Assembly: GCF_003286915.1 (NCBI RefSeq)
Contig: NZ_QMFY01000028.1
Location: 1-37,052 of the forward strand
DNA: 37,052 nt
Origin: Pseudochryseolinea flava
GTDB taxonomy: Bacteria; Bacteroidota; Bacteroidia; Cytophagales; Cyclobacteriaceae
Direction of reading: 5' to 3'
A model generated the notes under the pieces. The model did no database searches. It was not told the DNA's origin and saw only the letters and a list, made by a program, of their open reading frames with translations. Shown piece after piece: positions 17,001-37,052 of this stretch (the first letter of the stretch is position 1; the number at the start of each line of letters is the position of its first letter). The position numbers were made by a program, and so were the translations under genes.

Positions 17001-17014
17001 CATGCGTGCATAAG

Positions 17015-17571
17015 TTTAGCCATGAAGAACACAATGTTCACAAGGGAATGCCGAAGTACCACCTTGTGTTCCTAGTGCTCTTTGTGGAGAAATGAATTCT
17101 GGTATCTACTTAGCGTGCACACGTTTAGCCACGAAGAACACAATGTTCACAAGGGAATGCGAAGTACCGCCTTGTGTTCCTCGTGCTCTTTGTGGAGAAA
17201 TGAATTCTGGTATCTACTTAGCGTGCACAAGTTTAGCCACGAAGAACACAATGTTCACAAGGGAATGCGAAGTACCGCCTTGTGTTCCTCGTGCTCTTTG
17301 TGGCGAAATGAATTCTGGTATCTACTTAGCGTGCACAAGTTTAGCCACGAAGAACACAATGTTCACAAGGGAATGCGAAGTACCACCTTGTGTTCCTCGT
17401 GCTCTTTGTGGCGAAATGAATTCTGGTATCTACTTAGCGTGCATAAGTTTAGCCACGAAGAACACAATGTTCACAAGGGAATGCCGAAGTACCGCCTTGT
17501 GTTCCTCGTGTTCTTGGTGGAGAAATGAATTCTGGTATCTACTTAGCGTGCACAAGTTTAGCAACGAAGGT
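17015..17571. repeat. Tandem array of a 108-bp unit, five copies plus a stub
   Basis: Copies start at 17015, 17124, 17232, 17340 and 17448, with a truncated sixth at 17557. Units are 108 bp, or 109 where an extra C gives GCCGAAG. Copies are almost identical; differences include TGGAG/TGGCG and CACAAG/CATAAG. Each unit holds an imperfect 26-base inverted repeat (for example 17237-17262 with 17278-17303, 20 of 26 positions) around a 15-base loop. The array produces open frames of 148 and 174 codons because 108 is a multiple of three, but these are repeat artefacts. The CCACGAAGAACACAA / CTTTGTGG wording resembles dispersed repeats known from many environmental bacteria. Confidence 0.92.
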
Positions 17572-17686
17572 CCCCCGCGCATTCGACGTTTTCAAAGAAT
17601 GTACATTAACGATTAACTACTAGATATTAACGACCCAGCATTCACTATTAACGATTAACGAATAACGACGAGCGAAGCGAGTAAAG

Positions 17687-17768
17687 TACCGAAGGAGGGA
17701 CTCGAACCCTCACGCCTTGCGGCTCACGCACCTGAAACGTGCGTGTCTACCAATTCCACCACTTCGGT
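17687..17768 (-). tRNA. tRNA-Leu (anticodon CAG)
   Basis: 82 bases on the minus strand. Acceptor arms ACCGAAG and CTTCGGT pair fully, with discriminator A. The D arm is GTG...CAC with GGTAGA in the loop. Anticodon stem CACGT/GCGTG encloses the loop TTCAGGT, giving CAG. A long variable arm typical of class II leucine tRNAs follows, then the T arm GAGGG-TTCGAGT-CCCTC. No CCA is encoded, as usual in this phylum. Confidence 0.96.
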
Positions 17769-17832: not shown

Positions 17833-17837
17833 TGTTG

Positions 17838-17921
17838 TGCCCAGGACTGGACTCGAACCAGCACACCGGTTAAGGCTCTACCACCTCAAAGTAGCGCGTC
17901 TACCAATTTCGCCACCTGGGC
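17838..17921 (-). tRNA. tRNA-Leu (anticodon GAG)
   Basis: 84 bases on the minus strand. Acceptor arms GCCCAGG and CCTGGGC pair fully, with discriminator A. The D arm is GCG...CGC. Anticodon stem CTACT/GGTAG encloses the loop TTGAGGT, giving GAG. A long variable arm is followed by the T arm GCTGG-TTCGAGT-CCAGT. No CCA is encoded. It lies 69 bases upstream of tRNA-Leu(CAG) and is probably transcribed with it. Confidence 0.96.
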
Positions 17922-20542: not shown

Positions 20543-21109
20543 GTCGTTATTGCTTTTCGATTTTTAGTATTGTTGATGTTCTTGCTGTTATCTCGATGTT
20601 ACGAGTGAAACATTTGAAGTTGCAAACGGCGATTTTTGAAGTCGTCATTGTTGCAGGGAACTAAAAACAACGACGTAGCGGAATACAATGCGTGACGCAT
20701 GGTTGACATAAGATGAATTGGGGTTAAATGATGTACCAAAAATGGAAAAAAGGTTTTTCGTGAACAACGCGATGTAATTTTTCTGGTGAAATAGAATGCG
20801 TTTTGCCTGGAGAGTTTTTGATGTAGCGGCGCGCTACGTTTCTTCCGCTATTAATAATTCATATTTATAGCAATATGGTGGTGGGTATTACATGCATAAA
20901 GTTGCTTCCGATACCATCATGGAAAGACACTTCAGTTATATGCTGCGGAACGCACCTTGGTATTGTTTTATTTTTGATCCATTCCTTACATATCCACAGA
21001 ATACACTAATTAAGAGGAACGGCGCAAATGACCTATCTTTGAACCGTTTTGAAGGACTGTAATTGTGTGTTAACATAGACCTTGAAACGGAAATATTAGC
21101 CCCAATCGA
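20543..21109. other. 567-bp upstream region of the giant secreted-protein operon
   Basis: No gene is called. A perfect hairpin GTAGCG-GCG-CGCTAC (about 20823-20837) and the -7 element at 21034 are the visible features. A 56-codon frame (20892-21062) has no support beyond being open. Confidence 0.55.
21034..21041 (+). promoter_or_regulatory. Promoter -7 element TATCTTTG of the giant operon
   Basis: Exact match to the Bacteroidota -7 consensus TAnnTTTG, 69 bases before the first ATG. No clear -33 TTG is found 19-21 bases upstream, so the promoter may be weak or activator-dependent. Confidence 0.45.
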
Positions 21110-24100
21110 ATGAATCACTTTACCGGTGTGGGTCAGCGACTGCTGATCATCTTGATGTTCTTCTTGGTCTTACATGGCCACGCGCAGCAGACGCCAACAC
21201 CATCAGCAACTGCTAATCCTGAAGCGTATAGAAAGGCAATGGAAACTTTTGCCAAGCTCGATCAAACACAGCATTACACCGAATCGCTTGGCTACGCTGA
21301 CATGAATGTTCTCCCCCTTGGCATGAGGAGGACTATAAACAACAATACGTTTACCATTGCTGTCAGCGATATTCGTTGGCACCCACAACATGCAGAGCTC
21401 ACCATGTTTGCACGCATGGAAATTGGACAAGAGAATAAAAAGAAATTGTACTTCGCCGCACAAGGCATTAAGCTATCTTATACAGGCGACATCATTGGCG
21501 ATGCAATGCTCGTGTTGATGAACGACGTCGTCATTCCAATTCAAGGCAATACCGCCTCACTTATTCTGAAAGGAGGACAAGAAAAAGGGACTGGACGTGC
21601 CACCCAACTGACGTACCTCTCCGTGGATTGCAAAGGCTTCAAGGAACTTGGTGTTACAGCGGAACTAGAATTCTCAAAAGAACTGATGTACCCCGTTTAC
21701 GAAAAAGTTGAAAAGGATCAGCCAACAACAGTGAAAGGTGTGTTCTCGACCGTGGCGGCAGATTGGAATGATATTCTGGCCAGCATTACCCTTCCTCCGT
21801 TTTCAATAAAAGGTCTCGATGGTTTTGTGTTCACGGCACAAGAGGCGCTTTTCGATTTCAGCGATATCCGTAATCAACCCGGAATTCTGTACCCGCAAGG
21901 ATATGAACAGAACTACATGATTCCAGGCAATCCAACATTATGGCGCGGTGTATATGTAAAAGCATTGAGTGTAACACTACCCAAACCATTTTCAGACAAG
22001 AGTAAAGTGAGACCGACGTTCGTCGCATCGAATATGATTATCGACAACAACGGTATTAGCGGTGTGTTTGCTGCGAAGAATGTTCTTCCGCTCGATCGAG
22101 GTAGTGCATCAGGATGGCGTTTTTCTGTCGATGATTTTAACCTCGCCTTGGAAGCGAATCACCTTGTTGCTGCTGGATTTTCTGGGGCCATAGGTTTACC
22201 CATCGCCAGCAAAGACACCTTGGGATATGACGCCTTGATAACAGCCGACAACGAATACATGCTTCGCGTAAAGCCCATTGGGATGATGCAGTTCGATGTG
22301 TTCCGTGGAGAAGCGACCTTGCTTCCGACATCGTATGTTCAATTGAAAGTTGCCGACGATAAATTTAAACCCGAAGCATTATTGCACGGCTCCTTGAACT
22401 TCGCAGCACGCATCGATGGAAGCTCTCCCGAAGATTCTACGGGTAAGAAAGTTGCCGAGTTCAAAGGTATTGAGTTTCGAAGCCTGCGGTTAAAAACAGA
22501 CGCACCAACATTTTCTGCCGAGTACTTCGGATACAAAGGTTCTATTAAGTTTATGAACTTCCCGATTTCTATCGAGAGCATCGGGCTGCGTGCACAAAAA
22601 GATGAAGTGGCACTCGGTATGGACATCAAGCTCACCTTGAGCGATGGTCAGTTCTCAGGGAGCACGCGTTTGGAGTTGGTCGCGAAGGAAGAGAAAAAGC
22701 TCGGACCAGAAGGTGAGATTCTCGAACAACGCTGGCGCTACAAAAAACTAGCCATCAAAGACATTGCCATCGATGCTACCATTGCCGAAACTTTTTCGCT
22801 CAAGGGCAATCTGTCTATTCTGAGCAAGGACCCTGTATACGGTGACGGTTTTGCGGGATCAGTGTCGATGAAGTTCGATAAAGCCCTGAAAAGCATGAAG
22901 GCCGATGCGCGCGCGATCTTTGGAAGAAGAACCTATCGCTATTGGTTTGTCGACGCTAAAGTTGAGTTCCCAGGCATGGGTATTCAAATTGGTCCGATGA
23001 ACCTCAACGGTTTTGGAGGCGGCGTGTCTTACCGCATGAAACGTTCACCCGATGGTGCAGATGTATATTTGCCCGACTCGCTGTATGGTCTCGGCGTAAA
23101 AGCGGCTGTACTGTTCAACGTCGGAAGTAAACAAGCTGTCAATGGCGAAGCGTCATTTGAAGTGGCATTCAGTAAAGCAGGAGGTTTAAACTTCATCGGC
23201 TTCTACGGCTTCGCGAAGTTCGTTGGTGAAATTCCGGGTACTGACAACATTGCCAAGTTTGTTGAAAACAAACAAAAGGATATTGCTCAGAAGGAAGCTG
23301 AGTTTACGCAGGGTAGACAAGATATGGTAGAAACGCTTCAAAGAATGAAGCAATACGAAGCCACAAAGTCGGCAGACAAAGTTTTTAAACCTACCGAGAA
23401 ACCTGGTGAAGCTCCGTTCGCGGCGGCGCTGGGTATTCAATATGACTTTACAACGGAAGCACTACACGCTACATTCGATTTATACGTAAACGCGATTAAC
23501 GGTATGGTGCGTGGAACGGCCTCTGGAAATCGTGCCGGGTGGTCAGTGATTCACATCGATCCGAAAGAATGGTATGTTCACATGGGAACACCAACGGATA
23601 GACTCGGTATTAAGATGGGTATTGGTAATATCCTCAACGTGGAGACCGGAACATACTTGATGATTGGTTCACGTATTCCTGGTTCACCGCCACCACCACA
23701 ACAAGTGGCCGATATCCTTGGCGTAAAGATGGATGACCTTGACTACATGCGCGACCTTAACGCATTAGGCGAAGGAAAGGGATTCGCTTTCGGCTCTAGT
23801 CTTCGTGTTGCGACAGGTGATATCACATTCCTGGTATTGTATGCAAACTTCCAAGCCGGTCTAGGATTCGACATCATGCTGAAAGATTATGGTGAAGCAC
23901 AGTGCGAAGGGCGAAGCGGGCCTATTGGTATCGATGGCTGGTACGCGAATGGACAAGCTTATGCGTACTTGCAAGGTGAGCTTGGTATCAAAGTAAACTT
24001 GTGGTTTATCAAAGCTAAAGTACCGATCATCAAAGGTGCTGCGGCCGCGTTACTTCAAGCAAAACTCCCGAACCCAGTGTGGTTTAAAGGATACATGGGT

Positions 24101-25633
24101 GTTCAATTCAGTGTGTTGGGTGGACTTGTGAAAGGCCGAGCGCGCATGAAGATCACCGTGGGAGATGAATGTGAACTGGTGCTGCCAGGTGGAAGTCCGA
24201 TCGATATGAAAATCATTAGCGATATGACACCTGACGATAAGGCGACGGATGTAGATGTGTTCGCTGTTCCAGAGGTTGCACTAACCATGAAAGAAGGAGA
24301 GCACTTTACATTTGAAGACGATAGCGGCGTACGCAATTTTAGAATTCACCTCAACGAGCTTTATGTTCTTAATAAAGACGGAAAGCAAGTCAAAGGAAAA
24401 ATAAAGTGGTCTTTCGATCGCACAAATGTTTTCTTCTATTCGGACGAAGTGTTGCCTCCAAACATGGCGATGAAAGCCGTTGCGAAAGTTGGATTTGAAG
24501 AATATCGAAATGGAAAATGGTCTATTGTTTACACAGCCGGACAACTTGCGCAAGAAATTCAGGAGGTTTCTTTCACAACGGGCACAGCGCCTGAGTCCAT
24601 ACCTTTGCATAACGTCACGTATTCTTACCCGGTCGTTAACCAGCAATTTTTCTTGAAAGACGAGTCCACTAAAGGGTTTATACAATTGAATCGTGGCCAA
24701 AGTTATTTGTTTGACACAGACTATAACCATGAGATTCAGGTTGTACAGGCATCGGGTGAAAAAGTATCTCTTCCGATGACGTATTCTGAATCTCTCAAGC
24801 GTATAGATTTTTCTATGCCATCGTCGTTGGCGAATGGAAACATGTATTTGTTGGACTTAGTTGCCATGACGACCGATTCCAGCAAAACGGAAAAAGCTAC
24901 AACAGAATCAGAGAATGTAGTTGAACAGGGAGAAGATGTTATCAGTGTGACGCGGAATCAAACTGTGAATGTTATTCGAAACGACGCAGGAAAAAGTCTT
25001 TTAGCTTACCAGTTCACGTTAAGTCGGTACAATACATTTGCTGATAAAATTAAACTTCAACAGAAGCGAAGCGCGTTGGTTGGTGATGTTACAGATGTGG
25101 CAAATCTTCAATATAGCCTGCAAGGCGGTGAACCATTTGAAATCAACGAACTTGTGGGGTCACAGTATACCGATTCGAGACCTATGGTTGCGGCTCAGGC
25201 GATCTTAGACGATGCCTACTTCAACGAAGATATCAACCCTGTTTTGTATAGTAGATTGCAGGCTGCTCAATTTGGACTAGCGCGTATTATGAATGGCGGG
25301 GACAAATTAGGACTTCCTCCAGTGAAGGCGATCCAGATCTCTACTGCTTATTTAAATGACGCAGAGAATAATCAATATGACGGCGTTCCAAGAGATCGAT
25401 TCCCCTACATCTACAATCTCCCAGAAGTTTATAAGCAGGACTTTATTGATTTTCAGACGAAAGTCGTGAACAAATACTATGATTCACCGCGTCGTCGCGA
25501 ATTCTTAGATGTTATCGAAGGAACGTTTTCATTTATCCGTTTTGGACACTATAAAGTTGATTTTCAATATGTGTTTCCAGACGGCACGACAGGTAGTCAC
25601 GCGGTCTTTGAATATTATAACTTTTTGAAGTAG
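21110..25633 (+). CDS. Giant secreted beta-rich protein of unknown family (1507 aa)
   Basis: A signal peptide (LLIILMFFLVLHGHAQ, cleavage after about 26) starts a protein I cannot assign. Residues about 60-700 are dominated by alternating amphipathic strands separated by Gly/Asp turns, ending in a Gly-rich segment (GFGGGVSYRM). A charged coiled coil lies at about 713-763 (ENKQKDIAQKEAEFTQGRQD). More beta sequence follows, with a proline hinge GSPPPPQQ near 860. An Ig-like segment near 1045-1165 resembles Big_5 domains (MTPDDKATDVDVFAVPEVAL ... VSFTTG). No T9SS sorting domain is seen at the C-terminus. It is the first gene of the operon; the next starts 4 bases after its stop. A scaffold, channel or shell for the downstream proteins is possible, but that is speculation. 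Confidence 0.85.
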   Translation: MNHFTGVGQRLLIILMFFLVLHGHAQQTPTPSATANPEAYRKAMETFAKLDQTQHYTESLGYADMNVLPLGMRRTINNNTFTIAVSDIRWHPQHAELTMFARMEIGQENKKKLYFAAQGIKLSYTGDIIGDAMLVLMNDVVIPIQGNTASLILKGGQEKGTGRATQLTYLSVDCKGFKELGVTAELEFSKELMYPVYEKVEKDQPTTVKGVFSTVAADWNDILASITLPPFSIKGLDGFVFTAQEALFDFSDIRNQPGILYPQGYEQNYMIPGNPTLWRGVYVKALSVTLPKPFSDKSKVRPTFVASNMIIDNNGISGVFAAKNVLPLDRGSASGWRFSVDDFNLALEANHLVAAGFSGAIGLPIASKDTLGYDALITADNEYMLRVKPIGMMQFDVFRGEATLLPTSYVQLKVADDKFKPEALLHGSLNFAARIDGSSPEDSTGKKVAEFKGIEFRSLRLKTDAPTFSAEYFGYKGSIKFMNFPISIESIGLRAQKDEVALGMDIKLTLSDGQFSGSTRLELVAKEEKKLGPEGEILEQRWRYKKLAIKDIAIDATIAETFSLKGNLSILSKDPVYGDGFAGSVSMKFDKALKSMKADARAIFGRRTYRYWFVDAKVEFPGMGIQIGPMNLNGFGGGVSYRMKRSPDGADVYLPDSLYGLGVKAAVLFNVGSKQAVNGEASFEVAFSKAGGLNFIGFYGFAKFVGEIPGTDNIAKFVENKQKDIAQKEAEFTQGRQDMVETLQRMKQYEATKSADKVFKPTEKPGEAPFAAALGIQYDFTTEALHATFDLYVNAINGMVRGTASGNRAGWSVIHIDPKEWYVHMGTPTDRLGIKMGIGNILNVETGTYLMIGSRIPGSPPPPQQVADILGVKMDDLDYMRDLNALGEGKGFAFGSSLRVATGDITFLVLYANFQAGLGFDIMLKDYGEAQCEGRSGPIGIDGWYANGQAYAYLQGELGIKVNLWFIKAKVPIIKGAAAALLQAKLPNPVWFKGYMGVQFSVLGGLVKGRARMKITVGDECELVLPGGSPIDMKIISDMTPDDKATDVDVFAVPEVALTMKEGEHFTFEDDSGVRNFRIHLNELYVLNKDGKQVKGKIKWSFDRTNVFFYSDEVLPPNMAMKAVAKVGFEEYRNGKWSIVYTAGQLAQEIQEVSFTTGTAPESIPLHNVTYSYPVVNQQFFLKDESTKGFIQLNRGQSYLFDTDYNHEIQVVQASGEKVSLPMTYSESLKRIDFSMPSSLANGNMYLLDLVAMTTDSSKTEKATTESENVVEQGEDVISVTRNQTVNVIRNDAGKSLLAYQFTLSRYNTFADKIKLQQKRSALVGDVTDVANLQYSLQGGEPFEINELVGSQYTDSRPMVAAQAILDDAYFNEDINPVLYSRLQAAQFGLARIMNGGDKLGLPPVKAIQISTAYLNDAENNQYDGVPRDRFPYIYNLPEVYKQDFIDFQTKVVNKYYDSPRRREFLDVIEGTFSFIRFGHYKVDFQYVFPDGTTGSHAVFEYYNFLK

Positions 25634-25637
25634 TCAT

Positions 25638-27692
25638 ATGCGCTTAATAATCGTTTTCTTAATTTTTTCTGTCGCGGGCGTGCATGCGCAGGATTCGTTG
25701 AAAGTAAGTGTGCTCTCGAATGTAAAAGGAAATGTTATTCAACTTCGCTGGGCGGTCAACTCTGCTATGGCGTGGAAGACAACCAATCGTTACGGTTTTA
25801 TCGTGGAACGTATGACGGTAACGCGTGACGGGAAAGCACTTGCTGTTCCTGAAAAGGTTATCCTAACACCGAAACCATTAAAAGCTAGACCGCTCAATGA
25901 TTGGCAAGCACTTGCCACCGATAACCAATATGCTGCTGTAATTGCCCAAGCATTATATGGAGAAAGTTTTGAACTGACAGGGGACGATGCAAAAGGTGTC
26001 TCCAGGTTTATCGCGATGGCTCAGGAACTAGAACAACGGTATTTGGTATCGTTGTTCGCTGCGGATCTTTGCTACCCGGGTGCCGTCATGGCTGGATGGG
26101 GTTTAGAAGATGTAACTGTAAAACCTGGCGAGCGATATCTATATCGCGTATCGTCAGCTGCGCCACAGAAGACCCTGGCCATATCCATGGGCTTGGTCTA
26201 CGTCGGCCTCGCTGATGTCGTTAAACTACCAAAGCCACAAGAACTCACAGCAACATTTGGCGACAAAACGGTAATGCTAACATGGAATTATGGTTTGCTC
26301 ACCCGTTACTATGGAGCATACCATGTCGAGAAGTCTGAAGATGGAAAAAACTTTAAACGTATCTCTTCGACGCCGTTGAGTAATATGAATAGTAAAGATG
26401 GTAAGCCATTGGATAGAATGTATTTTATGGATACGCTGTCAAATAATATGGCTGTTACTTCTTACCGTATTCTAGGTGTCAATTCATTTGGTGAGGAAGG
26501 CCCCGTGTCAGAAATAGTGAGCGGAAAAGGTATTACGCGATTGGTCTATGTACCGCATATCGAAAAAGCAATTCCGAACGAATCCGGTGGTGTTGATATT
26601 GAATGGGAGTTTGACACGCGTGGAAATTCGCAGATCAAAAACTTTGAACTTCATCGTGGTGATCAGGCAAATGGGCCATTCGTTGCAGTTAAAAAAGATA
26701 TTTCATCGGGTGAACGAAAATTCGTGTATGACTCACTACAAGAAAGTAATTACTTCGTGATTGCAGCCATACCTCACCACGGCGAACCGAGTCTGTCATT
26801 TCCTGTATTGGTGCAACCAACAGATACAATACCGCCAAGTGTTCCAAAAGGATTGAAAGGTACGGTGGATAGCACCGGTGTTGTCCGATTGTCGTGGGAT
26901 AAAAATAAAGAGCGCGATTTCCTCGGATACAGAATTTATCGTGCGCAAACCAGAGGAGAAGAACTGGTGCCAATAACCGACATAGCGATAAAAGAAAATG
27001 CGTTTGTAGATTCAGTTCAAATATCGACTTTAAATAATGAGGTTATCTATGCCGTTACATCATTGGATCGACGTTATAACCAGTCCGCACAACCAACTAC
27101 AATTGTATTGAAAAAACCAGAGGTAGTTCCACCACAGTCTCCATTGATCACGAATTACATCGTTAACAACAAAGGTATTACGCTAGAATGGGTATCAGGC
27201 GGTGAAGAAAATTTGAGCATGATTCAAATCGTACGGACCGATAAGTCTACTTCACAAGAAATCATTCTAGCGGAAGTGAAAGATATGAAAATTGCAAGCT
27301 ATCGTGATTCGTTGGCAGCACCGCAGATGTGGTACAGCTATTCCATTCGAAGCGTTTCGGAGGGCGGACTAAAATCGACGTCGCCTGCTGTTACGCTTCA
27401 AGCTCCCGTCAGGGCAATAGGAAGTATTACATTGTTCTCAGCGAAGTTGAACGCAAAGAATAAACTGGTGATGCTCCAATGGAAGCACAACCTAAAAAAT
27501 GTTAAGCAGTTTGAAATATATAAAGGCGAAGTTGGAAAATCCATTACACTGTGGAAAGTACTGAAAGGATTTGAAGATAAAATTGAAGATCGTGTTATCA
27601 CGCCAGGTGTACATTATGAATATATCATTCGTGCATTATTGGATTCAGGTAAAAGTGGAGGATCGGCAAAAGCATCCACCAGTAAAAGGTAG
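25638..27692 (+). CDS. Secreted multi-domain Fn3 protein (684 aa)
   Basis: Signal peptide (LIIVFLIFSVAGVHAQ, cleaved after 18), a unique N-terminal domain (about 20-190), then about five consecutive fibronectin-type-III-like domains at about 197-300, 300-395, 396-495, 500-595 and 596-684. Each shows the family rhythm of a Trp in strand B (VMLTWNYG, VDIEWEFD, VRLSWDKN, ITLEWVSG, VMLQWKHN) and a Tyr-rich strand F. Domain 3 opens with DTIPPSVPKGL, a typical Fn3 boundary. No sorting domain or catalytic motif is present. It sits in a four-gene operon and likely acts in adhesion or as a structural partner at the cell surface. Confidence 0.88.
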   Translation: MRLIIVFLIFSVAGVHAQDSLKVSVLSNVKGNVIQLRWAVNSAMAWKTTNRYGFIVERMTVTRDGKALAVPEKVILTPKPLKARPLNDWQALATDNQYAAVIAQALYGESFELTGDDAKGVSRFIAMAQELEQRYLVSLFAADLCYPGAVMAGWGLEDVTVKPGERYLYRVSSAAPQKTLAISMGLVYVGLADVVKLPKPQELTATFGDKTVMLTWNYGLLTRYYGAYHVEKSEDGKNFKRISSTPLSNMNSKDGKPLDRMYFMDTLSNNMAVTSYRILGVNSFGEEGPVSEIVSGKGITRLVYVPHIEKAIPNESGGVDIEWEFDTRGNSQIKNFELHRGDQANGPFVAVKKDISSGERKFVYDSLQESNYFVIAAIPHHGEPSLSFPVLVQPTDTIPPSVPKGLKGTVDSTGVVRLSWDKNKERDFLGYRIYRAQTRGEELVPITDIAIKENAFVDSVQISTLNNEVIYAVTSLDRRYNQSAQPTTIVLKKPEVVPPQSPLITNYIVNNKGITLEWVSGGEENLSMIQIVRTDKSTSQEIILAEVKDMKIASYRDSLAAPQMWYSYSIRSVSEGGLKSTSPAVTLQAPVRAIGSITLFSAKLNAKNKLVMLQWKHNLKNVKQFEIYKGEVGKSITLWKVLKGFEDKIEDRVITPGVHYEYIIRALLDSGKSGGSAKASTSKR

Positions 27693-27712
27693 TTGATGTT
27701 AATGTTTTTTGT

Positions 27713-30700
27713 ATGAGAAAAATATTATTAATGCTCTTGGTTAGTTGCGCATCATACGTCGCGATGGCGCAGACATATGAGGTAAGCGCACATATTAGAA
27801 TTTGGTCGGACTTAAGCACCATGCATTGCAACAGTCACTACCGCTTACTCTTCCATTTCAAGGATAATACGTACCGTGAATGGTCGGAACTATTGACGAT
27901 GAATAGCGAAGGTGAAAAAGCGGATTTTTACAAGACGTTCTACCTGACTAGAGATAATCCGATCACGCATATGCAAGTAATTGCTGTCCGTAGGTATAAC
28001 AATGATTGTGATAAAGGTAGCGGTGATCCTCGTGACGAACGACTTATTCCGGTAACCATGCAAGTACCGTGCAATGATCAGACGACAGAACGTTACACTA
28101 ATATATTTTCAGCGTTCAGTGCGGGAAGTTTCATAGAGTTTACCGTAAATCCAATTTCAAATGTCGAAGCCATCCAAGTCGACGGGTTCTTCGAGTCGGC
28201 GTACGACGCAGCTTACTGGAAGTATGCTATCTATGGTGTCTATCCCGACAACTCGACGATTCTCCTGAGTAAGGATAATCGAAGCATGAATAAAACAGAG
28301 CTCACGGGACTTCGTGATCTGGTTCGCAGTCCTTTGACGAAGCGTTTGTCGAAAATAAGATTTATCGAAAGGCGAACATCCCTCCCGTGGGAAACACCAA
28401 GACAGCAAGAGTATTCTGTAACATATAACTCCAATGGTGAATTTGACCTGCCGTTTACCGAGCCTTTTCATTACGGTGCAACGATTAGAATCAAGCACAC
28501 TAAAATTCAAACGCCAATCACGCCTTCTCTCGGAACGGTAATGCCATCCCATCATGAAGTATCGCTGGTAACACCGGAAACCAGTGACGTTTTGCGCTGG
28601 CAATATCATCTTCAAGGGGAGGATACAACGAGATGGACTTATCTGCCTGCTTCGTACGGAACTCCACGGACATTGAAGTTGGTCGGGAAAGATTTCTTCA
28701 CATCAATTTCGAAAGATTATATCAACTACCTTTATAAAAATGTTTACTTCCGAGCGCGATACACCTGTGCGACAACACAAATCACACAAATCGCAACGGT
28801 TGAGCTGAGGCTATCCGCACCAGAAATAACCGTCGCAGCAGAGAACGAAAAATGTTTTAATGCACGGGATGGAAAATTCGTGGTGAGCTTGAATCGAACT
28901 TTGTTAGCAAACGAATCGGTTGGAATTGAATTGAACGGCACCATTTCTCCCGAAAATTATTTTGCCACGGCGCCAGGAAATCAGGTGGTTGTGGAAAACG
29001 TCGCGCCAGGAACATACAACGTTCGTATTGTTTCGGTTTTTAATATAGGGGGAGGAAAAACAAGAACCGGATATTCTGGTGCAACCGGCCACGTAAGGCT
29101 TGGTAGAAAGGTTAATGCCGCAAATGATTTCACAGTATTTAACGCTACACCCACTGCCGTAAAATGTTTCGGTGGTGCCGATGGAAAAATTGATGTTACG
29201 GCTACTGGTGGTACTGGAAATTTAACCGCGTCTTTATTTCTGAATAGCAATCAATTGAGCCAGTTGAATTTTTCTAATGGCGGAATCGTAACGTTCACCG
29301 ACCTCAGTAGCGGTTCATATCAAGTGAGATTAAAAGATAGCAATGGATGCGAACCAAAGGTAAGCGGTGTTGTCATAACAAAATCTGGCGTCGTTACACA
29401 ACCTGCAAAAGCTGCGGAGGTCGGGGTGATCGAAGCCATTGAACCCCTTGCTTTCGGCTACACTGACGGATACATCACCGTGCGCGCTAGTGAAGGTACT
29501 ATGCCTTATACATTCGAATGGAAAAACGCGAGTGGAACAGTGCTCACCGCTAACCCGCCCGTGAATGAAGGCACTACGATGCGCAACACCCTTTCGAATC
29601 TTGCAAAAGGTACGTACAACGTCATGGCCAAAGATAAAAATTATGATCTGGTGACCACGCGTACTGAAACCAACTTGAAAGGCTGTTATCAGAAAACATC
29701 GGTAATACTAAATGAACCTGCTAAACTAACCGTAGCTGTTGCTCAAAAACGTCCTGTATCTTGTAACGGCGATAGTGACGGAGAAATTTCGGCACGCGCC
29801 AAAGGTGGAAAACCTTTTCCTGTTGGATCGCCAAACTATCCATACCAATACGAATGGTATAAAGTTGTAAGTGGTACGCCACAATCAATTACGGATACTG
29901 ATAGCATCGCCGGAAACTTGAACAGCGCAACATTCCGCGTTCGCATCACCGATAAGAATGGAATCTCCACGTGGTCTCCTGATTTTAAACTCACGCAACC
30001 TGCCGTGCTTCGCTCTGATTTCGACTTAACGCCTGTGCTTTGCAATGGCGATAAAACAGGCGCAGCAACTTCATTGGCGAAAGGCGGAACTGCACCTTAT
30101 AAATACGCATGGAGTACCAACGACTCAACCCAAACCATTCAGAAATTGTCGGACGGATTTTACGCCGTTGTAATTCGTGATGCACGTGGATGTACTACCT
30201 ATGAACAAGTGGAAATTACCGCACCTGCAGGAATCGTTGATACGCCAACACTAACAATACCAACATGTCAAGGAGATGCGAATGGCTCCATCAGTCTCTC
30301 AGTTGCCGGTGGTAAAGCACCTTATACCTATGTGTGGGATAAGGATATAAATCAGAAGTCCAGTGTGTACAACAACCTTAAGACAGGTACATATGGTGTT
30401 GTGATCACTGACGCTAATAAATGTTTCATCACCCGTGAGTATACGCTGACAGATCCTGATATGTTCATCGTGGATCTTGGTCCCGATCGCGTGCTCTGTA
30501 AAGATCAAAGTCTAGCGGTCAACGCAACCATCGACGATGCAACAGCACAATACACGTGGTTGAAAAACAATCAAGCATTCTCCACCGATCCGTCGCTTTC
30601 TCTTTCTGATGAAGGTGTATACCACGTGAAAGTAAAAGATTACAAGGGATGCATGAACGAAGACGAAATCACCATCACGCGGACAGGTGAAGAAATTTCA

Positions 30701-31234
30701 GCAAGCATCGCTGTCGCTACACGTGTTCCTCAAAATGGAAAAGTACGTATTGCCAACATTAGCTTCCCGAAACCGGATCGCGCGCTTTGGATATTGCCAG
30801 AAGAAGCGATGGTGATCGAAGAAACTGAGGGCTATGTTGATCTTTCATTCCCCGACAAAGGTGAATACAATGTAGGACTCACTACATTCCTCGATGCGTG
30901 TGAAGAATCTACATTCGCTACGGTCAAAGTTGTTGACGCCAGAGAACTCACCGATTACATTCCACCAGATGAACCTTATATCAAGCAGTTCATGGTGACG
31001 CCAAATCCAAACGATGGTCGATTTACCGTTACCGTAGAATTAAAACAAGCTGGAGATTTTGACGTGCTGTTGTACAATGGTCAATCGTCCATCGTCAGAA
31101 ACGAATCCGTACGCGGAAAATCATACGCGAAGTTAGATTTTGATGTGCGCAATGAAGTAAGCGATGGACTCTATGTCGTTCAACTGAAAACCGCACAGGG
31201 ATACTCGATTTTTAAACTCATGATCAATAAGTGA
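27713..31234 (+). CDS. T9SS-exported surface protein with SprB-like repeats (1173 aa)
   Basis: Signal peptide (ILLMLLVSCASYVAMAQ), an N-terminal region of about 350 residues with no recognised domain, then repeats of the SprB type: clear copies near 483-545, 680-750, 770-825 and 845-905 (openings KCFGGADGKIDVTATGGTG, SCNGDSDGEISARAKGG, LCNGDKTGAATSLAKGG, TCQGDANGSISLSVAGG) and two degenerate ones (near 380 and 577). After an Ig-like segment (LGPDRVLCKDQSLAVNA) the protein ends with a type A sorting domain from about 1094 (MVTPNPNDGRFTVTVEL ... GLYVVQLKTAQG). Type IX secretion would carry it to the surface. SprB is the mobile gliding adhesin of Flavobacterium; this protein is far smaller. The next gene starts 7 bases after the stop. 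Confidence 0.92.
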   Translation: MRKILLMLLVSCASYVAMAQTYEVSAHIRIWSDLSTMHCNSHYRLLFHFKDNTYREWSELLTMNSEGEKADFYKTFYLTRDNPITHMQVIAVRRYNNDCDKGSGDPRDERLIPVTMQVPCNDQTTERYTNIFSAFSAGSFIEFTVNPISNVEAIQVDGFFESAYDAAYWKYAIYGVYPDNSTILLSKDNRSMNKTELTGLRDLVRSPLTKRLSKIRFIERRTSLPWETPRQQEYSVTYNSNGEFDLPFTEPFHYGATIRIKHTKIQTPITPSLGTVMPSHHEVSLVTPETSDVLRWQYHLQGEDTTRWTYLPASYGTPRTLKLVGKDFFTSISKDYINYLYKNVYFRARYTCATTQITQIATVELRLSAPEITVAAENEKCFNARDGKFVVSLNRTLLANESVGIELNGTISPENYFATAPGNQVVVENVAPGTYNVRIVSVFNIGGGKTRTGYSGATGHVRLGRKVNAANDFTVFNATPTAVKCFGGADGKIDVTATGGTGNLTASLFLNSNQLSQLNFSNGGIVTFTDLSSGSYQVRLKDSNGCEPKVSGVVITKSGVVTQPAKAAEVGVIEAIEPLAFGYTDGYITVRASEGTMPYTFEWKNASGTVLTANPPVNEGTTMRNTLSNLAKGTYNVMAKDKNYDLVTTRTETNLKGCYQKTSVILNEPAKLTVAVAQKRPVSCNGDSDGEISARAKGGKPFPVGSPNYPYQYEWYKVVSGTPQSITDTDSIAGNLNSATFRVRITDKNGISTWSPDFKLTQPAVLRSDFDLTPVLCNGDKTGAATSLAKGGTAPYKYAWSTNDSTQTIQKLSDGFYAVVIRDARGCTTYEQVEITAPAGIVDTPTLTIPTCQGDANGSISLSVAGGKAPYTYVWDKDINQKSSVYNNLKTGTYGVVITDANKCFITREYTLTDPDMFIVDLGPDRVLCKDQSLAVNATIDDATAQYTWLKNNQAFSTDPSLSLSDEGVYHVKVKDYKGCMNEDEITITRTGEEISASIAVATRVPQNGKVRIANISFPKPDRALWILPEEAMVIEETEGYVDLSFPDKGEYNVGLTTFLDACEESTFATVKVVDARELTDYIPPDEPYIKQFMVTPNPNDGRFTVTVELKQAGDFDVLLYNGQSSIVRNESVRGKSYAKLDFDVRNEVSDGLYVVQLKTAQGYSIFKLMINK

Positions 31235-31241
31235 TTTGTCT

Positions 31242-34200
31242 ATGCAAACGGAGACCCCAATTCTTTCAAAAGACAAATCATCAATTTTTAAGATGATGAA
31301 ACTACGTTGTTTGTTTATATTCTTATTGGCCATCGTGGGCATGTCGGCGTCAGCGCAAACGACATATCCGATTCAGGTCAACGCAAACTTGTTACCGCCC
31401 TATAGTCTTTATCTCAGCGACTACTACAGCGGAACACGCGAGAAGATTGCCGTGACACTCGTCAACCGCGATCAGCTTAAACCAACGTTATCGGTTCGTC
31501 TTCGCATGATCATCAGCGCTGCGGGTGGCGTACGCCTTCAAACAAATGACAATGTTTTCTTCGAGCCAATTATCGTTGAGAACGGATTACCATTAAGGTT
31601 GACAGCGTCTGACCTCGCGCCGTATTTTCAACCGAATAATTTAATCACACAAGGCTCACTTCCCTCAGGGAGATTGCCAGAAGGTCTTGTTGAATTTTGC
31701 TTTCAAGCCGTAGAAGCCTACACAGGTCAAGTGCTCTCTTCTTCTTCGTGCGCAAGAGCGTGGGTAACGAGTCAGAAGCCACCGCTGTTAAGTTTGCCGC
31801 GCGACAAAGAAAGCATCGCCTTCCGTGATCCGCTCAATGTTCTCTTTCAATGGACACCGCTACACCAGGGAATATCTCAAGTAGAATATGAATTTATTCT
31901 GAAAGAATATTGGGACAACGGGATGCCACCACAAGCGGCATTCCCTTACTCGCCGGAAATTTATCGCGAGACCACACGCAGTACTTCCATTATTTATGGC
32001 GCGCTTAATCCTCCGTTGCTTCCTGGAAAGAGATACATCTGGTGCGTACGTGCACAAGCACGCGATGGTATTGATCCCGTAAATCTTTTCCTCAACGAAG
32101 GGTATAGTGAAGTGCGAACATTTACACTTCAAGATAACTGCGGAACGCCAACATACATTTTAGCAACGGCTGAAAGATCGAAGCTTACATTAGAGTGGAG
32201 TGGTTTACCTGAGCACGTAGCGTTTGCAGTGAACTACCGATTAAAGACAGAGAATAACTCCGAGTCATGGACAGAACAACAAACCAATGACGTTAAAACG
32301 ATTTTATACAGTCTGAAGAATGGTGGCGTGTACGAGTACCGCATTGGTGCGATGTGTATCGCAGGGCAACCCGTGTTTGGTCCGATCATGGAGGTAGCAC
32401 TGCCGCAAGAAGATTCAACGCGACTGGCAAATTGTGGTATCCTTCCGGATGTAAACATCGCGAACAAAGAACCACTCAAACAATTGCAAACCGGCGAGGT
32501 AATTAAAGCGGGTGACTTTCCCATTACCATCACACATGTAAATGGAACCAACGGTACGTTTACTGGTAAAGGATGGACCACCGTACCTTGGTTGATGGAT
32601 GCTAAGCTCGCAGTAGAGTTTACAAGCATTGGCGTCAACACCGATCGTCAACTAATCTCGGGATACATTCAATCAAGTTATGATGTCAATGAAGGCGGTA
32701 TTACCGATCTCGACGAAGTATTCGAAGGTGGTGGTATCGGCGGAACAGTAATCACCGGACTCTCGGAATACGACACGACTTTCAACTTTGCTATTCCGGG
32801 TATTGAGTCGTTCACGTTGAATGAAGAAGGTGACCTGGTGATTGTAGATGATCAGAAACAGCCACACGTAGTTGATATGGCTGATCGTGAAGGACAAGGT
32901 AACGAAGGCAACAACGTGAAAGTCTTCCCGATGACGGTAAAAGACAAAGACGGCAAAGTGTATAAAGTAGATGAGGAAACCGTTGTTGAGAATGGACAGG
33001 AAGTGAAGAAAGCGAAAGCGACATTGATTGGACATGCAGGCCAGCCATTGACAGCTGGAAGTTTCGATCCCGGTCAGCTTGATAGCGATAAAGCTGTTGT
33101 GACATTCGAGAAAGGTGAGGGCTATTATTCATTCGATACGTGGCAGGAATATTATGCGAATGCGGCATTGATTCGCGAAAAGTATCAGAAGCTTGATGAC
33201 AACTACTACGCGCCATGGAAGTTCATGCTCGAAGGAAAGACCGATGTTGTGCGCGCAAGAATTCAGATCAAGGATTCATCGATCAAAGCGAAGAAGGTAA
33301 TTTTCAAGACACCACTCGGTGCGGAGTTCGCTGGAAATTACGATAGCATTCAGAATGTATATAACCTCACGTTGATCAGTGGACCCGTAAACGATGTACA
33401 AGAGATCTATGCGTTGTATCCTAAAACGAGTGATAGTTATTATACGCTTGGTAAAATTAACGTAGCAACCTATCCTGGTAAGAGCTATAGCGTAACACTG
33501 GTGTCCGTAAACAATGCTGCGATTGACCAGAATGCAATTCAAGAGACGTTAAACAAAACCTACGGGCCAGTAGGGGTAACGTGGCAAGTAACCCAAGAGA
33601 TATTATCCTATACCGGGAACGTGAATGTGTTGAATGAGTCGACAGGTTTGCAAACCTACAACGATGACATGCGCGCGTTGAATGCCGCGGCGAAGGCACA
33701 ACCATGGTATAAGAAAGATTCTAACATCCTATTCTTCATCGATCCATCGGGCAGTGAAAAGCAGAAGCGTGATGCTGCAGGATTTATGCCGCGAGGTGCA
33801 CAGTTCGGATACATCTTCCCGAATTCAGCAGCAGCCGGTACAGTAGATGAAACAGTAGCGCACGAGTTAGGTCATGGCCGTTGGAAACTCATCCACACGT
33901 TTGACAAGCACTATGGTGGTTATGCAACAGCTGCGACCGACAACCTGATGGATTACAACAACGGACTTCACCTGGCCAAGTGGCAGTGGGATCTGTTGAA
34001 CGATCCGAGCTGGCTGATGCATTTGTTTGATGGGGATGAGGAGGATATGTCTGCCGTATGCCAATCAAGTCTCACCGCGATTGAGGCTGTGATCCGCTCT
34101 GGCGAGGTGGTTACCTTCATGAGACTATTATCTGCCGTGCACGAACCCGATGGTGAATTTGAGCACAAAGGCAAAAAGTATAAGGTGTCGAAATTTGAGA

Positions 34201-36029
34201 ATGACCAAGTGTTGATACATTATTATCACGATGCTTATGATGATCCGACAATTCAGATGTTTCATGTTAATGTGAAGGATGAACAATTATTGTCAAAAGG
34301 CGATCAGAAGTTTTGGATTTACTATCACGACAATAGTTTTAGCAGCGGGCATGCGCTTGCAACGGTTCTCACAATGACGGTACTGTTAAAAGATGTTAAG
34401 CCAGACCTTAATGAACCAATGCATTGCCAAAGGAAGATAAGAAATTTTCCTTATGGGGTAACAGCAGGAGCGGCGTTCTCAAACGTTGCATCAGCGGCGG
34501 TATTTTATACTGCTTTTGGTTGGGCTGGTTTAGAGGCGTTTGTGGCAAACGGACTAGCTAAGTGTGGGTCAGCGCTGGCGGTGGATGTAGCGTTTCAAAT
34601 TGCAATCAATTCGCTTGTTAAAAGATATCTCGGAGAGGAGATTACAGCGGGTATATTATTAAAGGAACTTTCGGCGCCGAGCGCAGGAGCTGCATGTATT
34701 ACTGCTACATTTTTCCCCGATTGCGGAATGCGTTGTGCCGGTCTTACGGGACTTGCTACCGGTTTTGCTGATGATCTCGTAAAGCAACTTTACATTGATG
34801 AAAAGTCAATTGATGAATTAGATCTTAATCAAACGCTGCGTGCAGGTTTTATTCAAGGGCTCATTGCCATGGGCACGCAAAAAGTGATATCATTTGGCCT
34901 TAACAAATGGAATCAGCGTTATACCCGGAAGCAAGTTGAAGAGGCGATTGAAGATGCGCGTATTAACCCCGAGAAGTATGGGCTGCCCGGTCAGGGAGGA
35001 ATGCCAACTCAGGGCGTGGATTTCTCTGATGTTGTCATTAGTAAGAACTATGAATTGGCGAAAGACTTAATCGCAGGTGTTGTTTCAAAAGTTGATGATA
35101 ACTTGATTGACGTCGTTGTTCACGGGGCAGGTAATGAATATTCATTAGTTGAGGAGGGCCTTGAAGCAGTAGGACCTGTTGTGTTAGCAAACTGGATTGC
35201 TAGTAAGGGGATAAAGGATCAAACAATCCGCTTGCTTTCTTGCAGTAGTCTCGAGTCGGCCCAGCAACTTGCCAAAGAGCTGCAGCAAAAAGTTATTGCT
35301 TGTGAGGGTAAAATCAAGATATTTTCCGATGGTGGCATCGAGAGTATGGAGCGATCGCCTTGGTTTGAGCTTTCACCAGATGGTTCTAAAATCCCTGTTG
35401 ACGGGCCCCCATTGCCAGTGAATAAAGAAGGAAAGTTTGTGGAGCTTGGGAAAGATGCGGGAGAAAAATTAGCAAATGCTGGATTCGGTAAAACGCTTAG
35501 AGCATCTTTGTCCAAATTGGGAGTGAGTGATGATGTTACACAATATTCGATAGCCCAAAATTCGAGAGGTGGCGCTTGGGTTCTACTAGGTACGACTTTA
35601 GAAGCGAAGGAGATCGCACTCGCGGACGATATTTTTAGAGTGTTCGGTCAAAAATGCATTTTTCCGAAGAGTAACCTTCAGGCGATAGAAGGATTTTTGG
35701 CTGATGGGACACCGTTCACAATGAAGGAATTAGAAAAGAATTTTAATTCTTTTGCCGCAAGAATAAACGAGATGTCGTCGAAAATCAAAGCAGACCCTAA
35801 TTTTCAATGGCTCGGAGCAGAAGGTTATTTAAAAGTTCCCTTCAGTTCTTTTGTAAAAAATGACGGTACTGTGCAAACAGTTACCAAGGAGTATGTTGAG
35901 CAGCTTTTCGATGCTTCAATTTCACGAAATGCATTCACGATAAAAAATGATGGAACAGTAAAGGCGATTACGGTATTTCTTTACGATGGTAGTAGTTTTA
36001 TTCTCGATTTAAATAGACTGAAACCCTGA
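31242..36029 (+). CDS. TANFOR-like secreted zincin with polymorphic-toxin-type C-terminus (1595 aa)
   Basis: Start ATG 31242; ATG 31293 directly before the signal peptide (LRCLFIFLLAIVGMSASAQ) is a good alternative. Domain order: TANFOR-like region (about 36-297; NLLPPYSLYLSDYYSGTREK, LTASDLAPYFQPNNL, SGRLPEGLVEFCFQ); Fn3 (297-386); conserved linker (GDFPITITHVNGTNGTFTGK); zincin protease with HELGH (His874, Glu875, His878), third His885 and Met-turn NLMDY (Met903); hydrophobic segments (1069-1126, 1145-1179); and a C-terminal part with a VVVHGAG His1294 and LLSCSS Cys1334, spaced as in C80/caspase-like cysteine proteases. The final 200 residues match nothing I know and may be the effector. 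No T9SS sorting domain is seen. The 3' third is more AT-rich, as expected for exchangeable toxin tips. The toxin role is an inference. Confidence 0.85.
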   Translation: MQTETPILSKDKSSIFKMMKLRCLFIFLLAIVGMSASAQTTYPIQVNANLLPPYSLYLSDYYSGTREKIAVTLVNRDQLKPTLSVRLRMIISAAGGVRLQTNDNVFFEPIIVENGLPLRLTASDLAPYFQPNNLITQGSLPSGRLPEGLVEFCFQAVEAYTGQVLSSSSCARAWVTSQKPPLLSLPRDKESIAFRDPLNVLFQWTPLHQGISQVEYEFILKEYWDNGMPPQAAFPYSPEIYRETTRSTSIIYGALNPPLLPGKRYIWCVRAQARDGIDPVNLFLNEGYSEVRTFTLQDNCGTPTYILATAERSKLTLEWSGLPEHVAFAVNYRLKTENNSESWTEQQTNDVKTILYSLKNGGVYEYRIGAMCIAGQPVFGPIMEVALPQEDSTRLANCGILPDVNIANKEPLKQLQTGEVIKAGDFPITITHVNGTNGTFTGKGWTTVPWLMDAKLAVEFTSIGVNTDRQLISGYIQSSYDVNEGGITDLDEVFEGGGIGGTVITGLSEYDTTFNFAIPGIESFTLNEEGDLVIVDDQKQPHVVDMADREGQGNEGNNVKVFPMTVKDKDGKVYKVDEETVVENGQEVKKAKATLIGHAGQPLTAGSFDPGQLDSDKAVVTFEKGEGYYSFDTWQEYYANAALIREKYQKLDDNYYAPWKFMLEGKTDVVRARIQIKDSSIKAKKVIFKTPLGAEFAGNYDSIQNVYNLTLISGPVNDVQEIYALYPKTSDSYYTLGKINVATYPGKSYSVTLVSVNNAAIDQNAIQETLNKTYGPVGVTWQVTQEILSYTGNVNVLNESTGLQTYNDDMRALNAAAKAQPWYKKDSNILFFIDPSGSEKQKRDAAGFMPRGAQFGYIFPNSAAAGTVDETVAHELGHGRWKLIHTFDKHYGGYATAATDNLMDYNNGLHLAKWQWDLLNDPSWLMHLFDGDEEDMSAVCQSSLTAIEAVIRSGEVVTFMRLLSAVHEPDGEFEHKGKKYKVSKFENDQVLIHYYHDAYDDPTIQMFHVNVKDEQLLSKGDQKFWIYYHDNSFSSGHALATVLTMTVLLKDVKPDLNEPMHCQRKIRNFPYGVTAGAAFSNVASAAVFYTAFGWAGLEAFVANGLAKCGSALAVDVAFQIAINSLVKRYLGEEITAGILLKELSAPSAGAACITATFFPDCGMRCAGLTGLATGFADDLVKQLYIDEKSIDELDLNQTLRAGFIQGLIAMGTQKVISFGLNKWNQRYTRKQVEEAIEDARINPEKYGLPGQGGMPTQGVDFSDVVISKNYELAKDLIAGVVSKVDDNLIDVVVHGAGNEYSLVEEGLEAVGPVVLANWIASKGIKDQTIRLLSCSSLESAQQLAKELQQKVIACEGKIKIFSDGGIESMERSPWFELSPDGSKIPVDGPPLPVNKEGKFVELGKDAGEKLANAGFGKTLRASLSKLGVSDDVTQYSIAQNSRGGAWVLLGTTLEAKEIALADDIFRVFGQKCIFPKSNLQAIEGFLADGTPFTMKELEKNFNSFAARINEMSSKIKADPNFQWLGAEGYLKVPFSSFVKNDGTVQTVTKEYVEQLFDASISRNAFTIKNDGTVKAITVFLYDGSSFILDLNRLKP

Positions 36030-36035
36030 ACACAG

Positions 36036-36638
36036 ATGAGTCGTCTAAAAGTCACACAATCTTGGCTTGATTGGTTTAAAGGAAATTCGATCGAATTGAT
36101 CACAACAATCAGCAATCGCGAATTTTTCACCAGAATTGTGGAAGGTCGCTTTTCAACAAACGAAGTTTCCTATGGAATGATATTTAAATTAATTGACAGC
36201 TTCAAGTCTTCGTTGGATTTTTTAGCTGTACGAGAGATTCGGCTTGCCTACTCGCCCGAACTGGATGAAAATGGTATTCAATTTTGCTCAGAAGAGGATA
36301 AGTATATTGAATGGAAAAGCTTAGTGTTAGAAAAAAAAATCAGCTTTTCGGTGGATGATTTTGATAACGATGGTACTAATATTTTTTTTGACTATCTACT
36401 AGAGGCGAACGAAATTCAAACCTCGCTTTTTAGATTCTCAAGTCAAGATGTTGCTACAATTTATTTCTGGCAGGACAAACTGTCCGGTGAGATTTCTTAC
36501 AAGATAGAGGTAGAGCTAAGGAAATATCTATTCAGCAACGAGGAATCGGAGATGAATCTGTCAATGGATTGTTTGCAGTATAATAATATGTTACTGAACA
36601 ACGCAATTGCAAAATTTGGACAAGAACAATATAGATGA
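36036..36638 (+). CDS. Putative immunity protein of the upstream toxin
   Basis: 200 residues, no signal peptide or membrane segment, acidic, beginning MSRLKVTQSWLDWFKGNSIE. It starts 6 bases after the toxin-like gene stop, and its base composition is clearly AT-richer than that of the secreted proteins. Small, cytosolic, tightly coupled and compositionally foreign is the usual profile of an immunity gene of a polymorphic toxin. I recognise no immunity family (no SUFU, SMI1/KNR4 or Imm signature), so the role rests on position. Confidence 0.6.
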   Translation: MSRLKVTQSWLDWFKGNSIELITTISNREFFTRIVEGRFSTNEVSYGMIFKLIDSFKSSLDFLAVREIRLAYSPELDENGIQFCSEEDKYIEWKSLVLEKKISFSVDDFDNDGTNIFFDYLLEANEIQTSLFRFSSQDVATIYFWQDKLSGEISYKIEVELRKYLFSNEESEMNLSMDCLQYNNMLLNNAIAKFGQEQYR

Positions 36639-36653
36639 AACGGGACTTAACAC

Positions 36654-36830
36654 CCCCCGCCTTTGTTGGTGTTCGAAATGGCACGTGCGCGGTGGCACCA
36701 ATAAATTTAGTTACGCCAAATTATTTCGCGATTGATTAATATCCCCCGTCTTTGTTGGTGTTCGAAATGACACGTGCGTGGCGAACCAACAAATTTAGTT
36801 ACGCCAAATTATTCGCGATTGATAAATATC
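36654..36830. repeat. Two tandem copies of an 89-bp hairpin-forming repeat
   Basis: Copy 1 at 36654-36742 and copy 2 at 36743-36830 share most bases (CCCCCG.CTTTGTTGGTG, TTCGAAATG, CACGTGCG, AAATTTAGTTACGCCAAATTA, GCGATTGAT.AATATC). Each can fold a stem: TTGTTGGTG with CACCAATAA in copy 1, and TTGTTGGT..TCG with CGAACCAACAA in copy 2. The two stems differ in sequence but both pair. It follows the putative immunity gene by 15 bases and lies ahead of an IS element. Confidence 0.85.
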
Positions 36831-36994: not shown

Positions 36995-37052
36995 ATGAAA
37001 AAAACAAGATTCACAGAAGCACAGATCATTGGGATCTTAAACGAGCAGGAAC
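36995..37052 (+). mobile_element. IS3-family transposase OrfA, 5' end only
   Basis: ATG at 36995 opens a frame running off the window edge. Its 19 visible residues begin MKKTRFTEAQIIGILNEQE, the characteristic start of the OrfA helix-turn-helix protein of IS3-family elements of the IS407 type (compare the usual MKK.RFTE.QI.GIL). An insertion sequence therefore borders the toxin/immunity region. Whether it is intact cannot be judged. Confidence 0.85.

Follow-up and report, generated by a model that had tools for sequence, protein, structure and literature searches.

The window analysed here is a stretch of 37,052 nucleotides of Pseudochryseolinea flava DNA, which makes up the entire contig C20 (NZ_QMFY01000028.1) of a 6.54 Mb genome and in which open reading frames (ORFs) were called mechanically. 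It contains five ORFs arranged head to tail, all on the + strand and named here P1, P2, P3, P4 and P5, which probably form a polymorphic toxin-immunity locus akin to those of the TANFOR class, with P1, P2 and P3 as co-inherited partners of the putative toxin P4 in a scheme of docking and delivery. The locus shows the following features:

21034..21041, + strand: possible Bacteroidota -7 promoter element TATCTTTG; the motif is present and not enriched relative to shuffled sequences
21110..25633, + strand: P1, 1507 amino acids, with a signal-peptide-like leader and no Pfam or NCBIfam family over cut-off
25638..27692, + strand: P2, 684 amino acids, Fn3 protein with a signal-peptide-like leader
27713..31234, + strand: P3, 1173 amino acids, with SprB repeats and a type IX secretion system (T9SS) type A sorting tail
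31293..36029, + strand: P4, predicted TANFOR-like polymorphic toxin, likeliest start ATG 31293 or 31296
31386..32735, + strand: P4 residues 51-500 (numbering of the 1597-amino-acid ORF), carrier region including the TANFOR-like stretch, covered by 16-17 of 17 relatives
33861..33878, + strand: HELGHG zinc-peptidase-like motif, P4 residues 876-881
35070..35411, + strand: His/Cys stretch just before the tip, P4 residues 1279-1392, common to 2 of 17 relatives
35562..36026, + strand: P4 tip, approximately residues 1443-1597, predicted toxin domain of no known family, with lower G+C
36036..36638, + strand: P5, 200 amino acids, predicted immunity protein, no signal peptide by eye

In the Pfam/NCBIfam scan P2 shows an Fn3 domain (5.9e-8), P3 shows SprB repeats (6.2e-37) and a T9SS sorting tail (Por_Secre_tail/TIGR04183, 8e-10), and P1, P4 and P5 match no family over cut-off. 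The sorting tail is present in P3 alone, as an earlier note on this DNA had claimed, and the same genome encodes the T9SS component SprA. P1 and P2 would be cell-envelope or surface proteins, and P3 would be exported by the type IX system. PADLOC gave no match for P1, P2, P4 and P5; searches of solved structures gave none for P4 and for the profiles of P1 and of P6, a partner family described below, and only chance-level rows for P5 and the tip.

The P4 carrier, its variable end and P5

P4-type proteins were compared in the split form, in which P1 and the carrier are separate genes. The comparison contains 18 proteins: three belong to the P. flava genome, one belongs to Chryseobacterium sp. 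CH25 and 14 belong to 12 other genomes; they are those of the P1-bearing loci together with a copy on contig C26 of P. flava. Residues 51-500 of the window P4 are covered by 16-17 of its 17 relatives, residues 501-900 by about 12, residues 951-1250 by none, residues 1279-1392 by two and residues 1401-1597 by none. Among all 18, every one of the 153 pairs matches over the first 500 residues and three match over the last 250, and the immediately downstream genes match in two pairs, both within the three tip-matching ones. This constant N-terminus and variable C-terminus bear out the polymorphic-toxin layout that the earlier note had proposed for the fourth protein, as well as its expectation that the C-terminus and the downstream gene vary among relatives. 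When six further proteins with a P4 N-terminus (P4-N) from outside P1 loci (L108-L113) are added, 272 of the 276 pairs match at the N-terminus, three at the tip and five in the downstream gene; the three extra matches are P2-like genes, which come next in three of the six added loci (G158 C38, G289 and G314).

The motif HE(L/I)GHG with a further histidine is present in all 13 long P4 proteins and in none of the five short ones, which include the truncated C26 copy. The His/Cys stretch at residues 1279-1392 may be a caspase-like peptidase; in the polymorphic toxin systems described in the text of PMC3482391, peptidases of this kind sit just upstream of C-terminal toxin domains. P4 shows no two-partner-secretion domain, and no Pfam family matches it at E<=1. 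One sibling P4 ends in a colicin/pyocin DNase (1e-41), and the gene behind it encodes a colicin immunity protein (1.5e-5); another ends in an AHH nuclease (2.5e-11). Both recognised tips are of bacterial-toxin kinds. Two more matches stay below cut-off: TNT in G025 (0.0018) and AHH in G312 (0.021).

At the tip and P5 of the window the G+C content drops from about 0.45 to 0.38. Relatives of the tip are found at two other places only, contig C1 of genome G285 and Chryseobacterium sp. CH25, and neither forms part of a full P4. The G285 relative is 55% identical over residues 1395-1523 and is split into two ORFs, and the CH25 relative is 69-71% identical and is part of a stand-alone gene of 284 amino acids. 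In both, the next gene encodes a relative of P5 (34-39% identity), 11 bases downstream in G285 and two in CH25, so that tip and P5 are adjacent in all three genomes that have the tip. These stand-alone pairs strengthen the view that the operon ends in a toxin/immunity-like pair, already put forward in the earlier note. The CH25 locus around the stand-alone tip has P1, P2 and P3 of its own, a PKD protein, the beginning of a P6, and a P4 whose tip is a different one. Between the window and CH25 the tip is 71% identical, whereas P1, P2 and the P4-N carriers are 35-37% identical, which together with the lower G+C is consistent with an exchanged cassette. The tip and P5 show no match among plasmids; they are predicted to be a toxin-immunity pair matching no known family, and would add to the known pairs a family without known relatives.

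The region of G285 contig C1 that holds the tip relative (L107:1-18000) shows an array of short ORFs with three near-identical signal-peptide-like leaders and different C-termini. One ORF with the same leader ends in CdiA_C (5e-18), and the array resembles a reserve of orphan toxin/immunity cassettes.

Partner families and their arrangements

Partners were sought in a draw of 395 genomes of the phylum, P. flava included, in which two to three candidates were scored per genome, so that counts are lower bounds. P1 is present in at least 43 genomes, P4 (mostly its N-terminus) in at least 70 and P6 in at least 85; P2 matches in 131, the weaker matches possibly being generic Fn3. For P2 the neighbourhood comparison used all but one of the 50 strongest rows, down to about 1e-26; it merged neighbouring fragments of one gene, and omitted P4 rows matching residues 1279-1523 alone and one short stop-bearing P1 row; some weak P4-N rows in it may be Fn3 only. 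Within 20 kb of the 49 P1 places, P2 is found at 47, P6 at 42 and P4-N at 37, all on the same strand; the conservation of the partners as neighbours, on which the earlier note had made its proposal depend, thus holds. By genome, P6 accompanies P1 in 42 of 43 and P4-N in 65 of 70, and P4-N accompanies P1 in 36 of 43 (Fisher p 1.5e-31, 4.5e-50 and 1.1e-24, respectively, with genomes treated as independent, though they are related). Pairwise identities among P1, P2, P3, P4-N and P6 correlate at 0.86-0.97, values confounded by species relatedness and therefore given little weight. In the P1 and P2 trees the window copy groups with genes of family f7 and CH25 and not with the copy on contig C22 of its own genome (support 91/92 and 89/89); its position in the P4-N tree is unresolved. 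The two trees no more than hint at a transfer of the whole module.

P1 is an apparently new giant protein that belongs to no known family and is inherited together with the toxin carrier. Among its relatives (alignment A1, 29 rows) DUF6603 matches in one (7.2e-4) and Big_5 in five (best 7.6e-5), which are leads only; the literature search found no paper mentioning DUF6603.

P6, with 544-848 amino acids (fragments included), is present in 34 of 42 locus labels. Of the 91 P4-N places, 65 have a P6 within 20 kb, in each case on the same strand, and in 46 it lies no more than 3 kb upstream. The first two members scanned show no meaningful Pfam match, two of 30 match OMP_b-brl_3 (best 9.9e-6), and 18 of the 22 members under 700 amino acids end in phenylalanine. 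A terminal phenylalanine is a signature of outer-membrane barrels. P6 appears to be a new outer-membrane barrel-like family accompanying TANFOR-like genes. A third arrangement, P6 followed by a TANFOR-like giant of 1351-2427 amino acids and a P2-like gene, is found at L108:6591-14365, L110:2942-13904 and L113:4170-12416, and these triplets contain no P1 and no small downstream gene.

In P. flava itself, P6 is present on contigs C22, C26 and C19. Contig C22 shows the order P6, a P4-type gene (2184 amino acids), two genes of 229 and 308 amino acids, a P1-type gene (1525 amino acids), a P3-type gene (1481 amino acids) and a P2-type gene. Since all four gene kinds of the window are found again there in reshuffled order, the window layout exceeds chance. 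The C22 P4-type protein has a PT-HINT domain (8.6e-16), and its C-terminus and small neighbour gene are unlike those of the window. Contig C26 contains a third P4-type gene after a P6 (L012:2799-5113), which ends at 613 amino acids and is followed by an ORF of 159 amino acids with a 7-base overlap; it is probably a degraded copy. On contig C19 (L118:10788-19500), P6 and a PKD-type protein, identified by similarity to the CH25 one, lie beside a Peptidase_S74 protein and a PorP/SprF gene, with no P1 or P4 match among the ORFs of this locus. The same contig (L119:10225-10464) encodes a colicin/pyocin immunity protein of 79 amino acids (PF01320, 5.7e-6, over cut-off), beside which no toxin-like ORF was recognised and which is perhaps an orphan immunity gene.

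The split form is found in the window, on C22, at 12 places in family f7, in CH25, in G158 and in G064. In 14 loci of other lineages P1 forms the C-terminal part of a single ORF with 351-1036 extra N-terminal residues. In nine of the 14, phmmer finds P4 N-terminal matches inside the extension, and in G337 and G097 a P4-N match lies in the same open frame, which gives a P4-like extension in 11; in the remaining three the link to a P4-type N-terminus is length alone. The HELGH motif is in none of the 14 proteins. In 12 of them the residues after the P1 match outnumber those left in P1 itself by 33-204, and in the other two, G160 and G055, the P1 match stops early; where the surplus reaches 100-200 residues there would be room for a small domain.

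Relation to known systems and possible explanations

TANFOR proteins were defined as polymorphic toxins by Jana, Salomon and Bosis (2020, PMC7073777), and TANFOR is also mentioned once in PMC11796102. According to the main text of the 2020 paper, one TANFOR tip was shown to act as a DNase and to have an immunity protein, SprB, Fn3 and T9SS-tail domains are enriched near TANFOR genes, and T9SS is present in more than 95% of TANFOR genomes, export by T9SS being hypothesised only. Like the class described there, the window shows a leader that by eye looks like a signal peptide, a TANFOR/Fn3-like N-terminus, a variable C-terminus and a downstream predicted immunity gene, with an SprB and T9SS-tail gene directly upstream, an Fn3 neighbour and T9SS in the genome. 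Unlike it, the window P4 scores 12.5 bits (E 0.1) against TIGR02542, whose cut-off is 67. Among 27 N-termini, 16 match TIGR02542 at E<=1 (best 3.1e-8), and by genome seven of 20 match at E<=0.001 and none is over cut-off. P4 is therefore called TANFOR-like and not a formal TANFOR member. The possibility of a new antagonism system, raised in the earlier note, is not supported as such, since the 2020 paper had already described Bacteroidota toxins with this kind of N-terminus next to SprB/T9SS-tail and Fn3 genes; its conserved partners, variable end and covarying gene stand, and its picture lacked P6 and the forms of P1 without a recognised toxin. The main text of PMC7073777 makes no mention, as far as was found, of the P1 and P6 partner families, the carrier-P1 fusion or the HELGHG region, and the terms 'barrel', 'metallo' and 'hypothetical protein' are absent from its text. 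The kind of system is already known, and the parts that look new are P1, the carrier-P1 fusion, the P6 association and the tip/P5 family. The literature search, which left out most subscription papers and all preprints, found no other paper on a T9SS/SprB-linked antagonism system.

The window also resembles the polymorphic toxin systems described in the text of Zhang et al. (2012, PMC3482391) in its constant 5' body and exchangeable 3' cassette with an immunity gene, in the stand-alone cassettes, and in the HINT, caspase-like and metallopeptidase-type regions predicted in P4-type proteins. The abstract of that paper names as export routes type II, V, VI, VII, PVC, PrsW and MuF, and the terms 'TANFOR' and 'Por secretion' do not occur in its text. 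The traits of a polymorphic toxin found here are the constant body with a variable C-terminus, the co-moving adjacent gene and the stand-alone cassettes.

CdiA/CdiB systems have a giant secreted protein with an exchangeable C-terminal toxin, a downstream immunity gene and orphan cassettes. P4, giant and predicted to be secreted, resembles CdiA in its variable tip and in the downstream P5, and CdiA_C is found in the G285 array that holds the tip relative. Unlike CdiA, P4 has no two-partner-secretion domain; several giant partners are present, and no CdiB-like family is found among the P6 matches.

In the scheme proposed, P4 would be a Sec-exported carrier with a TANFOR-like/Fn3-like N-terminus, a conserved zinc-peptidase-like region, a variable stretch with a His/Cys (caspase-like) motif and an exchangeable toxin tip. 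Its N-terminal carrier would dock on P1: because the same kind of N-terminus belongs to the P1 polypeptide in other lineages, the two proteins are suggested to work together. A barrel of the P6 type, encoded on another contig, may keep the assembly at the outer membrane. On contact, the tip would be freed by a built-in peptidase-like region and enter a competing bacterium, and P5 would be the antidote that protects siblings. That the first three proteins build a surface structure, as the earlier note had suggested, we likewise only infer. The way in which TANFOR toxins leave the cell is left open in the text of PMC7073777, and the window P4 has no T9SS tail; the P1, P2 and P6 families and the carrier-P1 fusion are concrete candidates for the absent delivery parts. 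A broader proposal, possible and put forward tentatively, is that P6 and P2, often with P1, form an undescribed outer-membrane presentation or export apparatus dedicated to TANFOR-like N-termini, with a passenger either built into P1 or split off as interchangeable docking toxins; the window would be a transferred, weaponised copy with a new toxin/immunity pair.

Several observations weigh against a toxin locus of this kind. The tip shows no known toxin domain in family scans, and its fold model (alignment A2, five rows) has a mean predicted local distance difference test score of 51.9 and is unusable. Among the 16 P4 C-termini scanned, which exclude those of G316 and C26, two show a toxin family over cut-off. 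In a class-level search P5 is found in one of 395 genomes, its own, and the tip is found in one named record, CH25. The Pfam/NCBIfam scan finds no T9SS tail in P4, whose export route across the outer membrane is left unexplained, and there is no P6 on the window contig, which ends about 0.4 kb past P5. P1 is in none of eight other sampled genomes of the same family, and P3-type proteins are found at 15 of 42 locus labels, for which limited stretches around the loci were available. In none of the six added carrier loci does a small gene follow within 50 bases, and the P1 parts of the extended ORFs show no toxin family in the Pfam matches of alignment A1 (11 of 14 loci, to the ORF end). Hence neither P1 nor the carrier alone implies a toxin, and the partners are not dedicated to toxins.

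P4 could be a plain T9SS cargo of the same toxin-immunity pair, with P1, P2 and P6 as unrelated surface proteins travelling along. The sorting tail of its neighbour P3, SprA in the genome, the frequency of T9SS in TANFOR genomes given in the text of PMC7073777 and the PorP/SprF gene in the C19 P6 locus all fit this explanation, which is nevertheless rather unlikely, as P4 itself lacks the tail, P4-N co-occurs with P1 (36 of 43 P1 genomes) and P6 (65 of 70 P4-N genomes) far beyond chance, and in other lineages P1 and a P4-type N-terminus form one protein. A tip aimed at eukaryotes (predators or hosts), with P5 as a chaperone or regulator, would find precedent in predicted tips of the TANFOR class such as VIP2, listed in the text of PMC7073777. 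This is very improbable given that P5 moves with the tip in three of three genomes, which is immunity-gene behaviour, that a relative of the tip lies in an array beside CdiA_C, and that the two recognised sibling tips are bacterial-toxin nucleases, one with a colicin immunity gene. The least probable explanation is that there is no toxin and that the locus encodes a large adhesin or matrix-protease complex, the hypervariable C-terminus then reflecting binding specificity: it agrees with large genes encoding leader-bearing Fn3-, SprB- or protease-like proteins, with the P1-carrier fusions lacking a recognised toxin and with the six carrier loci lacking a small downstream gene, and it is opposed by the nuclease tips, HINT domain and colicin immunity partner of sibling loci and by the stand-alone tip and P5 cassettes.

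ORF starts, transcription and flanking sequences

The ORF coordinates confirm four long ORFs packed in a row with a small gene behind, as previously described. The P4 ORF (31236-36029) has 1597 amino acids from TTG 31236 and 1595 from ATG 31242; its leader begins MMKLRCLFIF, so that ATG 31293 or 31296 is the more likely start. The gaps are four bases between P1 and P2, 20 between P2 and P3, 1-7 between P3 and P4 and six between P4 and P5. Of the gaps of 4, 20 and 7 bases reported earlier, the first two stand, and the last becomes about 58-61 bases if P4 starts at 31293/31296. Signal peptides had been claimed for all four large products, and leader-like stretches can be read by eye in each, with ends at AHA/Q in P1, VHA/Q in P2, AMA/Q in P3 and ASA/Q in P4.

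The single -7 element reported ahead of the operon is present, and TATCTTTG is plausible as the promoter of P1. The window contains 30 copies of TAnnTTTG where 31 are expected, and the promoter argument was dropped because the motif is at chance frequency. Terminators are not clearly enriched in consensus scans, which find 19 where shuffled sequences average 15.6 (standard deviation 4.3), and the single transcript therefore remains an assumption.

Right after P5 the window shows an 89-bp direct repeat (36647-36830), and at 36997-37052 the apparent start, by eye, of an insertion-sequence transposase gene that runs off the contig end. Upstream of the locus, approximately 20 copies of the 7-bp unit GTTAACT (75% matches) lie between two ORFs at 15585-15731, and a 108-bp unit repeated 5.2 times (96% matches) at 17004-17569 adjoins two tRNA-Leu genes (17686-17768 and 17837-17921).

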